Source: an uncultured Spirochaetota bacterium (lineage in GTDB: Bacteria; Spirochaetota; UBA4802; UBA5550). From it: a stretch of 53,074 nucleotides of DNA. Below are positions 42,036 through 48,397 of this stretch, one piece after another; position 1 is the first letter of the stretch, and every line of letters begins with the position of its first letter. The position numbers were made by a program, and so were the translations under genes. The stretch lies in the NCBI GenBank assembly GCA_937872225.1, contig CALMRZ010000057.1, forward strand, positions 1 through 53,074, written 5' to 3'. The notes beneath the pieces are model-generated. The model was given only the letters and a program-made list of their open reading frames with translations. It searched no databases and was not told the origin of the DNA.

Positions 42036-43088
42036 TCACATCCTGCTTACATATTCCCTCACCGTATCCGCCGCATCCACCGTTGTCACCACCAGGGGGT
42101 CCACGCCGGACCGCATGAGGCGAACGCGCAGTTCGCCGATGTCCCTGCCCCGCGCCGGGCAGCAGATGTCTTCGATGAAAATCACGGCCTCAATGCCGTG
42201 GCCTTTGATCATCGAATAGAGGAGCGCTGTCCGTTCCTCCACGGTACGCACCGAGGGGCACCGGGGACGGTACGAGAACGCGTCAAGTATTTCATGATAG
42301 AGTTCGGCCGACTCGTGGTTGTACGACATGTCGAACTGCCGCCTGCCCCCGCAGGCGTCATCCTCGACCACGAGGCACCCCGCCTCCTCGATCTCGTCCA
42401 GCACCGCGGCATCGGCGGCAAAGCCCGCGTAGACCATCACCGGAACGCCGGCGGCGGACACGGCGGATTCCGTCCGGTTCAGGCCGTCCAGGACCGCGGC
42501 CAGAAAATCGGCCGTCACGGCCGGCGGGAACACCATGGCCGCTTCCATCACCGTCCCCAGATCGCGGCACGAGAGAAGGTCGGGCTTTTCGCGCCGGGCA
42601 GCCGCGATTCCCCGCACCGCCCGCCTCACCCTGTTGTACATCGCGGTAACGGACGAAAGGACCGCTGGGTCAAGGCGGGAGAGCCCGCCGCGGCCGGCCC
42701 GCTCCAGCAGCTTTTCCATGGACGCCTCCATGCCGCGGCATGATTCCTCGCCCCAGCCGGACGGGCAGAAGAACTCGCTCACCGCGTCCGCCCTCCCGGA
42801 GAGGCCGTCCCTTCCGGCGCACCCCCGCGGCACCACCAGGAGATCATAGGTCTCCCCGATGCCGTCGAGCGACGACGCTCCCGCAGCGGTGCAGCGCCCG
42901 ATCATCAGCGACGGGATCCGCAGGGGCACAAGCCCCAGCGCCGCGGTTATCTCTGCCGGAAACATGTCGCAGGTGACCCCGGCCAGGACGGCCCCGCTCT
43001 CTTCGCGGAACCTGCCGATCACCATGCCGAACTGGAATATCATTTCCCGGAGCGGATCGACCAGATGTGAAAGTTTCGATTCCAGCAT
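42036..43088 (-). CDS. 2-hydroxyacyl-CoA dehydratase family protein (HgdB/double-cubane cluster type)
   Basis: 350 residues. Family blocks are VTCDMFPAEITAALGLVPLR with Cys40, VVPRGCAGRDGL, VYAGFAADAAVLDEIEEAGC LVVEDDACGGRRQF and EAVIFIEDICCPARGRDIGE. These supply [4Fe-4S] cysteines in the HgdB/BcrB fold. True dehydratases need a second subunit and an ASKHA-type activator ATPase; neither is adjacent. It may therefore belong to the single-polypeptide double-cubane branch of unknown function, with an activator elsewhere. No ribosome site is obvious at the ATG. Confidence 0.8.
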   Translation of the reverse strand: MLESKLSHLVDPLREMIFQFGMVIGRFREESGAVLAGVTCDMFPAEITAALGLVPLRIPSLMIGRCTAAGASSLDGIGETYDLLVVPRGCAGRDGLSGRADAVSEFFCPSGWGEESCRGMEASMEKLLERAGRGGLSRLDPAVLSSVTAMYNRVRRAVRGIAAARREKPDLLSCRDLGTVMEAAMVFPPAVTADFLAAVLDGLNRTESAVSAAGVPVMVYAGFAADAAVLDEIEEAGCLVVEDDACGGRRQFDMSYNHESAELYHEILDAFSYRPRCPSVRTVEERTALLYSMIKGHGIEAVIFIEDICCPARGRDIGELRVRLMRSGVDPLVVTTVDAADTVREYVSRM

Positions 43089-43304
43089 GTTTTTATTATC
43101 CGTTTTACGCCGCAGGCGGAGAAGAATTCTTCAAACCATTATTTTTAAAAAAAATGTTTGTATTTATGCAGATACCCGATTATTGTTGCTATTTGCAAGA
43201 AGAAAAAAGATTTGCCGCATAGCCGGCGCGTCCGATCCGGGACATACCCACACCGCAAGGCCGGCAGGCATTTCTGACAAACAACCGTGACGTGGAGAAT
43301 CCCT

Positions 43305-44297
43305 ATGCCATCGGCAAAACCAGCACAGAAAAAAAAGTCCGCCGCGCCCTACCTGTCCGTCGTCCTCCCGGTCTACAACGAGGAGGGAAACATATACCTC
43401 CAGTATGAAGAAATCATCAAGGCCCTGAAGCCCCTCAATATCACCTATGAAGTTATTTTCATCGACGACGGCAGCATCGATTCATCGCCGGACATCCTCC
43501 GGGACATCGCCAAGAAGGACCGGAACATCAAGGTCATCCTGTTCCGCCGCAACTTCGGGCAGACGGCGGCGATGTCGGCCGGCATAGATTACGCCGCCGG
43601 GACCATCATCGTGTTCATGGATTCCGACCTCCAGAACGATCCCAACGACATCGGCATGCTTTTCAAAAAGATAGAGGAAGGATACGACGTGGTGAGCGGC
43701 TGGCGCAAGAAGAGGATGGACAAGTTCCTGTCCCGGAAGCTCCCGTCCCGCATCGCCAACTGGCTGATCGCGAGGGTCACCGGCGTCAAGCTCCACGACC
43801 TGGGGTGTTCCCTGAAGGCATACCGGAGCGAAATTCTGAAGCAGGTCAGCCTCTACGGCGAGATGCACCGGTTCATCCCGGTCCACGCATCGTGGATCGG
43901 GGCAAAGATCACCGAAGTCCCGGTCACGCACCACCCCCGCCAGTACGGCCAGTCCAAGTACGGCATCAAGCGGACCTTCAAGGTCATTCTGGACCTCATC
44001 ACCGTCACTTTCATGGGCAAGTATTCGACCAAGCCGATCTATGTCTTCGGCGGCACGGGGTTCATCATGTTCACGCTGAGCATACTCACCGGGGCGGCGG
44101 TCATCTGCATGAAGGTGTTCCTCTACCTTCCCATGAACAGGAACCCGCTCCTCATCCTCACGGTCATGCTGCTCCTCCTCGCCGTCCTCTTCATCCAGAT
44201 CGGCATCCTGGCGGAGATCCTGATACGGATATACCACGAGGCGCAGAACAAGCAGCCCTACAACGTCCTCGAAACGTTCAACGTCCCCAAAAAATAG
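43305..44297 (+). CDS. Glycosyltransferase family 2, polyprenyl-phosphate sugar transferase type
   Basis: About 330 residues from the ATG at 43305 (GTGGAG eight bases upstream; a GTG six codons earlier is rejected). GT-A fold: SVVLPVYNEEGNIYLQYEEI near the start, EVIFIDDGSIDSSPDIL, NFGQTAAMSAGIDYAAGTII and metal motif FMDSDLQNDP near 110. The conserved HRFIPVHASWIGAKITEVPV and QYGQSKYG blocks follow. Two C-terminal membrane helices (VFGGTGFIMFTLSILTGAAV and LLILTVMLLLLAVLFIQIGI) match DPM1/GtrB/ArnC-like enzymes that make undecaprenyl-phosphate-linked sugars. It converges with the Mla-like operon (eight-base gap). Confidence 0.92.
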   Translation: MPSAKPAQKKKSAAPYLSVVLPVYNEEGNIYLQYEEIIKALKPLNITYEVIFIDDGSIDSSPDILRDIAKKDRNIKVILFRRNFGQTAAMSAGIDYAAGTIIVFMDSDLQNDPNDIGMLFKKIEEGYDVVSGWRKKRMDKFLSRKLPSRIANWLIARVTGVKLHDLGCSLKAYRSEILKQVSLYGEMHRFIPVHASWIGAKITEVPVTHHPRQYGQSKYGIKRTFKVILDLITVTFMGKYSTKPIYVFGGTGFIMFTLSILTGAAVICMKVFLYLPMNRNPLLILTVMLLLLAVLFIQIGILAEILIRIYHEAQNKQPYNVLETFNVPKK

Positions 44298-44305
44298 GGC
44301 GGCGG

Positions 44306-45037
44306 TTATTCCTTTTTTCCGCTGAAAAGGAACTTCATCGGGTTCCTCTTGATTTCGCTGGACACCTCGTCCAGGGTGCGGGCCGTTTTCCGCATGCTGC
44401 CGATGATGTCGATGATGTCCTTCTGCGAATTCTGCAGAATGCTGTTTATATTCTGGATGCTGCCGGCCAGGCTGGAGACGAGCCTGCGGATGTCGCCGCG
44501 GCTCTCCTGCGAAACCTCGCGGTAGAGGGTCACGATGGCCGTCACCTCGGTCAGCAGCGTGTTGACCTTCGTCATGATGTCCTCGATGCTGCCCGACTCG
44601 ATACCCTCGATGACGTCCCCCTCCCTCAGGAAGGCCCCCTTCTTCTCGGGGTTGCGGAGCTCCACCACCGGGTCTCCGATGACGTTCTGGTTGGTGATGA
44701 CGGCGGCGCAGTCCTCGTACAGCTCGATGTCTTTCCCGATGCGGAGGGTGGCGATGAAATGGAGTGCCGGCTTGAACAGGGGCCGGACGTCAACGACGCG
44801 GCCGAGCTGGTACCCCTTGATCTGGACCGGCGTCCCCTTCTTGAGGGAGGAAATGCTGTTCACCTTCACGTAGATATCCATGGTGGACGTGGCCAGGGAA
44901 TAGCCGAGCTTCACCAGTATGAAGAGGACAACGACGACGGCCGGGATGAGGACGAAGAGCCCCACCCGGTATTCGAGCCTTCCCAGTCCTTCGCGGACCC
45001 TGCCGATCATCCGTTTCATGTCGGTGTTCATGTTCAT
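44306..45037 (-). CDS. mlaD-like: MlaD-family MCE-domain protein
   Basis: 243 residues. One N-terminal membrane helix (LEYRVGLFVLIPAVVVVLFI), a single MCE domain (residues ~50-140: VNSISSLKKGTPVQIKGYQL GRVVDV and NQNVIGDPVVELRNPEKKGA), then a long helical coiled tail (VTAIVTLYREVSQESRGDIR). MCE proteins bind phospholipid between inner and outer membranes. Last gene of the permease-ATPase-MlaD operon; 11 bases after the ATPase-like gene. An in-frame ATG two codons later is an equal start. Confidence 0.88.
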   Translation of the reverse strand: MNMNTDMKRMIGRVREGLGRLEYRVGLFVLIPAVVVVLFILVKLGYSLATSTMDIYVKVNSISSLKKGTPVQIKGYQLGRVVDVRPLFKPALHFIATLRIGKDIELYEDCAAVITNQNVIGDPVVELRNPEKKGAFLREGDVIEGIESGSIEDIMTKVNTLLTEVTAIVTLYREVSQESRGDIRRLVSSLAGSIQNINSILQNSQKDIIDIIGSMRKTARTLDEVSSEIKRNPMKFLFSGKKE

Positions 45038-45048
45038 ACGCCCTCGCC

Positions 45049-45798
45049 CTAGCGGATATCCATGGGCCCTTCCAGGGCCACATTCCGGTACTGGACCAGG
45101 TAGGGATTCTCCGATTCCCGGAACTCCCGGCGGTCCCCTGAAAAAACGACCCTGCCTTGATACAGCATTATGAAGTTATCGGCAAAATCAAGAAATTTTT
45201 GCGGATCATAGGTGACGAAAACGACCGATTTATCAGGGCTCTCCACGCGCCTCTTTAACACGTCCATAAAGGAGCTGATATTCAGGGGCGACAGGCCCGT
45301 GAAAGCATGCTCGATTATGAGCAGGCCGGGGTCGTGGGCCACCGCCCGGCCATAGGCGGTGCGGAAGATCTGCGACGCGGTTAGCTCCACGGGCCTCGCC
45401 TTCCTTTTATCGAGGATATTCAGTTCGCCCATGAGCCGCTCGGTTATCCGGGTGATCTCCCCGGGGGAATACTCGGAATAATAATCAAGGCGCAGCGCGA
45501 TGTTCTGCTCCACCGTCATGTTAGAAATGAGGCCGTAGTCGCCGTGGACGTAGCCGATCTCGTTCTTGTAGCGGAGCTTCCCCAGGTAGTCGAGGCCCTG
45601 CAGCGTCTTTCCCCGGTAGCGGATGTCGCCGGAATACAGCTCCTCCAGGTTCAGCATCAGCTGCGTCAGCGTCCTCAGTCCCGACTGCTCCACTCCGAAG
45701 AACACGGCGTTCTCGCCCGCGCCGATGGAGAAGGAGAGCCCTTCCACGGGCTCGGCCGCGGCGCAGGATACGTTGATGAATTCAAGGAGCGGCGCCAT
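45049..45798 (-). CDS. MlaF-like ABC ATPase homologue with degenerate catalytic motifs (pseudo-ATPase)
   Basis: 249 residues, MlaF length and fold order. Walker A reads GVEQSGLRTL (35-44): the Lys of GxxGxGK[ST] is Leu41 followed by Arg42. The Q-loop YVHGDYGLISNMTVEQN has Gly86 for Gln. The signature is LTASQ (139-143) instead of LSGGQ. Walker B plus catalytic Glu is LLIIEHAFTGL, with Glu163-His164 for Asp-Glu. The H-loop is VTYDP, Tyr197 for His. D-loop-like GLSPLN remains. GGAGTAGGAC precedes the ATG and the gene is otherwise undamaged, between intact permease and MlaD genes. It may be a structural subunit with another ATPase supplied elsewhere. Confidence 0.85.
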   Translation of the reverse strand: MAPLLEFINVSCAAAEPVEGLSFSIGAGENAVFFGVEQSGLRTLTQLMLNLEELYSGDIRYRGKTLQGLDYLGKLRYKNEIGYVHGDYGLISNMTVEQNIALRLDYYSEYSPGEITRITERLMGELNILDKRKARPVELTASQIFRTAYGRAVAHDPGLLIIEHAFTGLSPLNISSFMDVLKRRVESPDKSVVFVTYDPQKFLDFADNFIMLYQGRVVFSGDRREFRESENPYLVQYRNVALEGPMDIR

Positions 45799-45801
45799 GT
45801 C

Positions 45802-46629
45802 CTACTCCAGCCACGTAAAATAGAACGCCACCGAGATGGCCGCGTTCAGCAGGATGGTGAAGAAGAGGGTCCGGCTCACCGCGCGGGAAACGAATATCGG
45901 TATCTCAAATTTTGACCGGGGCATCATCCCGTAGTAGCAGCTGGCCAGGGGAATGAGGAGGCCGAATACGAGGCTCTTGAGGATGGTGGCCGCCAGGTCT
46001 TTCAGCGAAAATGCCGTGCCCAGGTTCTGAAAAAACATGTCCAGGGGGATGTAAATCGTCGTGAGGGATATGAAATAGCCCCCCAGAAAGGCGACGATAT
46101 CGAAAAAAATGATCAGGGAAAATATCGAAAGGATCGTGGCCGCGATGCGCGGGATCACGATGAAAAGGCGGGGATCTATGCCGGAAATCTCCAGGGCAAG
46201 GATCTCCTTGCTCCACTGCTGGGTCGCCGTTTCCGTGGCCATGGCGGACCCGGAGCGGCTTATCACGATGAGCGCCGTCACCAGGGGACCCAGCTCGCGG
46301 GCGATAATTATCACCAGCAGATTGCCGAAATAACCCTCGATGCCGAATTTCGGGAGGTTGGTCATGCCCTGGATGATGACCACGCCGCCGAGGAGCATGG
46401 CGATCACGATGATAAAGGGGAGCGCGTCGATGCCGGTGTACTTTGTCTGCTGCAGGATAATGGCGTAGATCGCCCTCATGCGGATGAACCGCAGGGACTT
46501 GAAGGACTGGAAGATCGAGTAGACGAAGGCCCCGAAGTCCCGGACCCCGTCCCAGAAGCGCAGGACCGCCGCGCCGATTGTTACCGGCAGGGCCCCGACC
46601 CGAGTCCCGTTGTTCTGTCCGTCAGCCAT
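45802..46629 (-). CDS. mlaE-like: MlaE-family ABC permease
   Basis: About 275 residues from the ATG at 46629; a 36-codon upstream extension is rejected as non-family sequence. Five to six membrane helices. The cytoplasmic coupling helix region ATETATQQWSKEILALEISG IDPRLFIVIPRIAA is the MlaE hallmark, as is ELGPLVTALIVISRSGSAMA. First gene of the operon; three bases separate it from the ATPase-like gene. It should form the inner-membrane channel of the lipid transporter. Confidence 0.92.
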   Translation of the reverse strand: MADGQNNGTRVGALPVTIGAAVLRFWDGVRDFGAFVYSIFQSFKSLRFIRMRAIYAIILQQTKYTGIDALPFIIVIAMLLGGVVIIQGMTNLPKFGIEGYFGNLLVIIIARELGPLVTALIVISRSGSAMATETATQQWSKEILALEISGIDPRLFIVIPRIAATILSIFSLIIFFDIVAFLGGYFISLTTIYIPLDMFFQNLGTAFSLKDLAATILKSLVFGLLIPLASCYYGMMPRSKFEIPIFVSRAVSRTLFFTILLNAAISVAFYFTWLE

Positions 46630-46921
46630 CAATCGACACCGCCACCATCGTTCTCGTCCAGGCAGGGAGATACTATGGACGGGGACGTCATTAAAATCAA
46701 TTACAATTTGCCACAAAGAGGCGGGGTTAAACGACACCCGGCGCCGTCGTTCACTTCATCCCTCATCCCTTCTTTAAACGGACTGTTCACGCCGGGACCG
46801 GGTCCCCTGCGGCAGCATCCGGATGGACCGCCCCCCGCCTCTATAATTATCACTCCCTTTCAAAAAATCATTGATTATAGACGCAGGATATTATGTCATG
46901 TACCGCGAACGGGATCCCGTG

Positions 46922-48397
46922 ATGAACAAAAACCTGAACTACATCATCGTTGCGTTTCTCGGCGCCTGCACCGTCGCCGCCGGCATCATCACGCATTTCG
47001 ATACGGTCCTCTATCTCCACGACTGCATTCTCAGCATGTACATCGAAACGGCCGAGACGCTGGTCCCGTCAAGCCCCACCTACACCGTTGTCGACCACCG
47101 CGATTACCGGCCCCAGGTGCGGACCTACCGCGACCTCCCCCGCGGATTCATCCACAACGGGAGCATCCTGATGTACCGTGCCGGCCGGGAGGACGAAGAC
47201 CTCGGCGACATCGCGTCGGAAGCGGTACGGTACACCGATTATTACCGGGCATCATCCCTGGCGTCATCGATCAGGGAATACAACGGGCTCCGGGGCACCG
47301 ACGTGCCCGCCGGCACCGCCCTGGTGATACCCGGCTCGGCGCCGGCCCTGAGAAGTGACCCGAGGAACCAGGTGATGCCGCCCCTCATCACGGCCCGCGG
47401 CCTCTATTTCACCGGCACCAGCGTGGGGGGAAACAAGATCCTGGGCAACCTGGACCGGTTCAGGGAGCTCGGCATCAACACCATCGTCTTCGACGCCAAG
47501 GACATCGGCGGCGACCTCAGCTATTACAGCAGGGTCCCCGAAGTGCAGCGGCTCGGCACCCACGACAAGCGCACCATCGACAACATCGAGAAATTCATCC
47601 GCACCCTCAAAGAGAACGGCTTCTACACCGTGGCGCGGATGGCGGTTTTCCACGACCACCTCCTGCGCAAAAAGGACCCCTCCCTGGCCATACGGTCGCG
47701 CGGCGGCGGCCCCTGGAACCCCGACGCGAAGGAAAAGTGGTGCGATCCCACCAACAGGAAGGTGCAGGACTACAACATCGCCATGGCGGCGGAGCTTGCC
47801 GAGATGGGGGTAGACGAAATCCAGTTCGACTATATCCGCTTCCCCACCAAGGGAAACCCGAAAGACGCTGACTTCAAGTACGATTTCGGGAAGATGTCCC
47901 GGGAGGCGGTCATCACCCACTTCCTCAAGCGGGCCCACGAGGCCATTGCCGCGCGCAAGACGCGCCTCTCCATTGACATCTTCGGCGTTGTCGCCTGGGG
48001 AAAGGGCGTCGATATCGAAAGCACGGGCCAGCGGATCGACCTCCTGGCAAAGCACTGCGACATCATATCTCCCATGCTCTACCCCTCGCACTTCAACGAC
48101 GACTTTGACGGCTACGCGAGGCCCGGCGATAATCCTTACTATTTCATTTCAAGCGGGTGTCAGAAGGTTATTCAGCTCGCGGGGAAAAACACCGTGGTGC
48201 GGCCCTGGCTGCAGGCGTTCCGCTGGCGCGTCTCAAACTACAACAGCCAGTATATCAAGACGCAGATCAAGGCAACGAACGATTCCGGCGCAAAGGGCTA
48301 CCTGTTCTGGAACGCGGCGAACGATTACGAAACCGTCCTCAGGGCCCTGGAAGACCTGAACGGCGTGAAAAAGCCTAAAGAGGGACAGGACGAATGA
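46922..48397 (+). CDS. Exported LysM plus DUF4015 glycoside-hydrolase-like protein
   Basis: About 491 residues. An N-terminal membrane helix (YIIVAFLGACTVAAGIITHF) directs it outside. A LysM-like segment lies near residues 90-135 (DLGDIASEAVRYTDYYRASS; LRGTDVPAGTALVIPG). The C-terminal 330 residues are a DUF4015-type (beta/alpha)8 barrel: ITARGLYFTGTSVGGNKILG, NTIVFDAKDIGGDLSY, EIQFDYIRFPTKGNP with likely acid catalysts and LSIDIFGVVAWGKGVDIEST. It probably binds peptidoglycan or another glycan, cut or not. An ATG at 46898 (AGGA upstream) is an alternative start. Followed by dapF-like and carbonic-anhydrase-like genes in a possible operon. Confidence 0.85.
   Translation: MNKNLNYIIVAFLGACTVAAGIITHFDTVLYLHDCILSMYIETAETLVPSSPTYTVVDHRDYRPQVRTYRDLPRGFIHNGSILMYRAGREDEDLGDIASEAVRYTDYYRASSLASSIREYNGLRGTDVPAGTALVIPGSAPALRSDPRNQVMPPLITARGLYFTGTSVGGNKILGNLDRFRELGINTIVFDAKDIGGDLSYYSRVPEVQRLGTHDKRTIDNIEKFIRTLKENGFYTVARMAVFHDHLLRKKDPSLAIRSRGGGPWNPDAKEKWCDPTNRKVQDYNIAMAAELAEMGVDEIQFDYIRFPTKGNPKDADFKYDFGKMSREAVITHFLKRAHEAIAARKTRLSIDIFGVVAWGKGVDIESTGQRIDLLAKHCDIISPMLYPSHFNDDFDGYARPGDNPYYFISSGCQKVIQLAGKNTVVRPWLQAFRWRVSNYNSQYIKTQIKATNDSGAKGYLFWNAANDYETVLRALEDLNGVKKPKEGQDE

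Follow-up and report, generated by a model that had tools for sequence, protein, structure and literature searches.

What becomes of an Mla-type lipid transporter whose motor subunit no longer carries the motifs of an ATPase? The question is posed by an operon of an uncultured Spirochaetota bacterium, and it touches on an open one, namely the ATP requirement of MCE systems and the direction of lipid flow to which it applies. We analysed a stretch of 53,074 nucleotides, hereafter the window, which makes up contig C57 of a draft genome of 4.69 Mb. The pseudo-ATPase in its Mla-type operon is real and conserved: it has the fold and operon context of an MlaEFD system but not the ATPase motifs that define one.

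Operon layout and genomic setting

The operon has the order permease–nucleotide-binding domain (NBD)–MCE, as in most relatives, with stop-to-start gaps of 3 and 11 bp between its three genes:

45802..46629, minus strand: MlaE-family permease (type C), operon gene 1 (Pfam PF02405 MlaE, 1.7e-52)
45049..45798, minus strand: pseudo-MlaF, 249 aa, an ABC NBD fold without nucleotide motifs (Pfam ABC_tran, 2.4e-9)
44306..45037, minus strand: MCE (MlaD-like) protein (Pfam PF02470 MlaD, 1.6e-11)

The permease reading frame (45802–46737, minus strand) likely starts at the ATG at 46629, with a possible extension to a GTG at 46737. The initial annotation had drawn the operon as 45049–46629, a span that holds the permease and NBD genes and leaves the MCE gene just outside. 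The MCE protein, whose alignment is conserved among relatives, has an N-terminal transmembrane helix, one MCE domain and a C-terminal helix of about 80 residues (low-confidence model, pLDDT 70, pTM 0.38). Measured against MlaEFD-type systems, the locus has MlaE permease and MCE-domain genes in a single operon, as judged by Pfam, and an NBD subunit with the MlaF fold and C-terminal segment; the ABC ATPase motifs are absent from that subunit.

Three flanking genes recur beside the operon in relatives:

43287..44297, plus strand: GT2 glycosyltransferase, convergent with the operon
46871..48397, plus strand: DUF4015 glycosidase-like protein, divergent from the operon
42036..43088, minus strand: 2-hydroxyglutaryl-CoA dehydratase D-type protein

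The first two are retained in many relatives and point at the cell envelope, while leaving the substrate unfixed.

Nucleotide motifs and fold of pseudo-MlaF

Losses in Walker A, Walker B, the Q-loop, the signature and the H-loop had been listed in the initial annotation, and every substitution named there is present in the sequence:

45670..45696, minus strand: former Walker A, GVEQSGLRT (against GxxxxGK[ST]T), Leu41 replacing Lys
45529..45555, minus strand: former Q-loop, GYVHGDYGL (HG for FQ), Gly86 replacing Gln
45370..45384, minus strand: former ABC signature, LTASQ for LSGGQ (family consensus L[ST]xSE)
45307..45324, minus strand: former Walker B, LLIIEH (against LLLLDE), Glu163-His164 replacing Asp-Glu
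45202..45216, minus strand: former H-loop, VTYDP (against VTHD), Tyr197 replacing His
45061..45108, minus strand: retained MlaF-type C-terminal segment, NPYLVQYRNVALEGPM, which aligns with the tail of the genome's canonical MlaF, NPIVRQFVRGMVEGPI

The D-loop is altered too (GLSPLN for GLDP). Pseudo-MlaF has no catalytic residue and lacks most nucleotide-binding residues. Its C-terminal segment, NPYxxQY...GPM, is conserved in the family, with N231, Q236, G244, P245 and M246 nearly invariant.

According to an AlphaFold2 model built with 21 orthologues (pLDDT 90.1, pTM 0.86), pseudo-MlaF keeps the MlaF fold. Foldseek matched the model to ABC NBDs with E-values down to 2.7e-21, and among the matches listed E. 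coli MlaF (6xbd_I) covers it best, with a TM-score of 0.92. A second aligner gave Z-scores of 27–30 for MlaF chains (6xbd_I: VIA Z 29.3), with which several other importer NBDs tie. In an unrooted tree with long branches, pseudo-MlaF and its sister group form one clade (100/99) in which each group is monophyletic (99/97), and this clade does not group preferentially with canonical MlaF over nine other ABC ATPases.

Conservation and selection

Relatives were searched by protein search, and 393 genomes of the phylum with a profile. The pseudo-NBD was found in 42 of the 46 genomes of the Spirochaetota order and in 13 of the 347 other sampled genomes; these are draft genomes, in which absence calls depend on completeness. 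The match in one genome, G029, is its canonical MlaF. A contig scan with a single pattern gave strong matches only in Spirochaetota MAGs, which does not show absence elsewhere. Chance and assembly error are ruled out, since independent MAGs agree and the same losses occur in 42 genomes of the order. An extra pseudo-operon on a 6.9 kb contig of a genome from another family (L008; G045 C242) groups with the genus of the window; it is probably bin contamination, possibly a transfer.

Among 36 aligned orthologues, the Walker A Lys and the catalytic Glu of Walker B are absent throughout (0/36 each), the former replaced mainly by Ile (14) and Leu (13) and the latter by His (33/36). The Walker B Asp is retained once and is Glu in 34, and the H-loop His is likewise retained once and is Tyr in 31, while E37, G40 and P199 are invariant (36/36). 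Some orthologues retain a near-signature, LSGSE or LSGSQ, and four relatives have a Lys shifted one place later (GSGLKT). When conservation was scored in windows along the alignment, the Q-loop region ranked near the top (7% of windows are as conserved); the P-loop, signature and D-loop regions were only average, so our claim of conservation is restricted to single fixed residues.

Reading frames are open, with no internal stops, in all orthologues listed. For twelve pairs of pseudo-MlaF genes, dN/dS (NG86) was 0.014–0.20, comparable in magnitude to the values for the permease and MCE genes; the ratios are rough because several dS values are high, and none is near 1. Purifying selection thus maintains the motif-less state across the order. 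The initial annotation had suggested selection for a non-hydrolytic role, and had taken canonical Walker motifs in close relatives, or a dN/dS near 1, as marks of simple decay; canonical Walker motifs are found in no close orthologue and no ratio approaches 1, which supports its suggestion.

The sister clade and the permease

The sister group comprises 13 genomes from two other families (f22 and f38), in which pseudo-MlaF adjoins an MCE gene. It stands half-way: the Walker A Lys is retained in 12/13, whereas the catalytic Glu is found in one genome only (L071), LSGGQ in none, and the H-loop His is replaced by Tyr in all 13. On these sequences, the parsimonious order of loss would be signature, catalytic Glu and H-loop first, and Walker A Lys afterwards.

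The permeases have changed as well. In a tree with long branches, a split with 100/99 support sets type C and sister-group permeases apart from the canonical types A and B. The cytoplasmic motif AELGTMKVxEQIDAL of MlaE-type permeases, which we take to face the NBD, reads AEIATQKQNxEILSLE in type C, and a similar change is seen in the sister group. MlaE was searched for in 37 genomes of the order: the type C permease occurs in 33/33 with pseudo-MlaF and 0/4 without. The absences amount to about three independent losses, and the co-inheritance accordingly counts as supportive and not as a statistic from a large sample. The permease gene is still present, though unlinked, in the sister group and in G008. 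Pseudo-MlaF is inherited with one permease clade having a remodelled coupling motif.

A second type of degenerate NBD

MlaE–NBD–MCE operons with a different degenerate NBD were found in the Nannocystaceae MAG NORP301 of the Myxococcota (L129:5165-7736) and in G005, a member of the window's genus (L200:1360-3586). The two NBDs match each other at 7e-14. Neither has a normal Walker A (GEQQTRLTQ and GGFKASSLI, respectively), and both have PxEYQK for LSGGQ and Asp at the H-loop; the Walker B DEP is retained in G005. As PxEYQK and the Asp are common to these two and absent from the window's family, NBD function may have been lost more than once in MCE operons.

Other MCE systems in the genome

Three MlaE and three MCE genes were identified in the genome of the window (G000). 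They belong to a canonical operon B, located on contig C78, to a system A and to the pseudo-system, C. Outside operon B and the window, the following genes are of interest:

G000 C44:39767-40402: system A permease, solitary
G000 C12:49306-49527: system A MCE gene, solitary
G000 C43:9072-9824: canonical MlaF without a linked permease
G000 C87:8080-8811: canonical MlaF without a linked permease

System A is fully dispersed: its permease, its MCE gene and, in most genomes, two different canonical MlaFs are unlinked, and are kept or lost jointly across the order. Its two MlaFs are possibly a heteromeric canonical ATPase pair. In a congener, the MlaE gene of type B is broken into two reading frames (G001 C1:39636-40072) beside an open MlaF, a possible pseudogene or assembly error. 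A search of the window's genome for MlaC found none, in line with a bridge and not a shuttle.

Proposed mechanism and alternatives

We propose, with a probability of about 0.5, that the operon encodes a lipid transporter of the MCE class, built like MlaEFD but with MlaF turned into a dedicated pseudo-ATPase, and that it serves as a lipid conduit without ATP hydrolysis by its own NBD. Two copies of pseudo-MlaF would dock onto the MlaE dimer, held together by their retained C-terminal tails and by the former ATP interface in its reshaped form. The pair could act as a scaffold or a gate. Lipids would then pass the MlaE cavity and the helically extended MCE hexamer with no ATP hydrolysis by pseudo-MlaF, either down a gradient or by another force, so that the system would functionally resemble the ATPase-less PqiAB and LetAB. 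We infer that pseudo-MlaF does not bind nucleotide, and note that it may bind it in an unconventional mode. More tentatively, we envisage an NBD pair that binds no nucleotide at all, and thus a one-time pump that now conducts lipids passively or through a gate, long kept across the order, with a half-way state in the sister group and a second, separate degeneration in the Myxococcota and the congener.

A shared or heteromeric motor is unlikely, although it deserves consideration ahead of the other alternatives. In this model the type C permease would bind a canonical MlaF encoded elsewhere, in an asymmetric pair whose non-catalytic member is pseudo-MlaF. Candidates are available in the genome (the orphan MlaFs on C43 and C87 and the canonical operon on C78), and among the genomes examined for all systems every one with a pseudo-operon has at least one canonical MlaF that could be borrowed. 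The ATP sites of ABC dimers are composite. Because pseudo-MlaF lacks both the Walker side and the signature side, neither site would be intact in a mixed dimer; this argument is weaker in the few species whose orthologues have LSGSE or LSGSQ. Of the two roles that the initial annotation had offered as examples, the structural half in a heteromeric pair of ATPases is accordingly disfavoured by the loss of Walker motifs and signature in one polypeptide, and a transporter driven by another mechanism appears, from sequence comparison, the better supported. Precedents exist for sharing, as one ATPase is common to mycobacterial Mce systems (PMC10517005), and degenerate sites are common among ABC transporters; however, the known degenerate transporters have their deviations concentrated at one composite site, with the other intact (PMC7756269), and here neither would be complete.

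The distribution of the canonical genes also argues against an obligatory canonical partner. The orphan MlaFs are retained or lost together with the A permease and the A MCE gene, from which we conclude that they belong to system A: G002, G021 and G030 have a single permease and a single MCE gene, of type A, and both orphans, whereas in G020 and G028 (96% complete) all four genes are jointly missing and the pseudo-system is kept. It is likewise kept in G003, G004, G007 and G010, where canonical operon B is missing, so that no single canonical MlaF is obligatory. Conversely, orphan MlaFs remain in G002, G021, G029 and G030, all of which lack the pseudo-system. Canonical MlaFs lacking their own permease, for which the initial annotation had proposed a search, do exist (C43 and C87), but their presence follows that of another permease and MCE gene (C44 and C12), and the phylogenetic profile does not support a dedicated canonical partner.

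We consider it improbable that pseudo-MlaF is a regulatory subunit, one that holds the permease closed, competes with a true NBD or senses a non-ATP ligand at the reshaped site. The new conserved residues at the former ATP site (E37 in 36/36, E163 and H164) suggest a retained site, and Mce1N, which competes with MceG in mycobacteria, provides a precedent (PMC10517005). Yet pseudo-MlaF occupies the operon place of MlaF, follows a single permease clade and does not occur in genomes with canonical systems only, so an integral subunit fits better than a general regulator. Simple decay of an ATPase gene heading for loss, as the loss of all motifs in one gene and the lack of the system in four genomes of the order might suggest, is practically impossible and is rejected on account of the open frames, the dN/dS of 0.014–0.20, the fixed replacement residues, the occurrence in 42 genomes and the changes partly common to the sister clade.

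The conserved motif-less motor gene suggests an ABC-type transporter whose own motor subunit hydrolyses no ATP. A dead-looking but conserved NBD, a half-degenerate sister and canonical paralogues in the same cell would together allow a direct test of any role of the NBD beyond hydrolysis. Caution is also needed in annotation, as profiles call such motif-less genes 'ABC transporter ATP-binding protein'.

Comparison with known systems

No description of a pseudo-ATPase MlaF was found in the literature searched, which excluded most subscription journals. Like TM287/288, TAP, ABCC and ABCG5/G8, pseudo-MlaF has non-catalytic NBD motifs kept by selection; unlike these, which keep one consensus site (PMC7756269), it has lost the residues of both roles in one chain. 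The window's chain can form no complete ATP site, and no obligate canonical partner was found among the genomes profiled.

In mycobacterial Mce systems, MlaE-like permeases and MCE proteins are served by the ATPase MceG, common to several systems (PMC10517005). The operon of the window differs in having its own, non-catalytic-looking NBD, and no obligate shared ATPase was identified for it. PqiABC and LetAB (YebST) are MCE transporters whose inner-membrane part has no working ATPase (PMC12436622). PqiA and LetA are without any NBD, whereas the window keeps an MlaE permease and a pseudo-NBD; its permease gave no match of the PqiA/LetA type in Pfam, only PF02405 MlaE.

The operon shares with MlaFEDB/MlaEFD of E. 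coli, P. aeruginosa and Veillonella the order permease–NBD–MCE, the MlaE and MlaD domains, and an NBD with the MlaF fold (TM 0.92) and MlaF-type C-terminal segment. No MlaC was found in its genome, as in the bridge system of Veillonella (PMC10665443). Unlike those systems, it has an NBD without the Walker A, Walker B, Q-loop, signature and H-loop residues, a permease with a remodelled coupling motif, and a helix of about 80 residues after the MCE domain.
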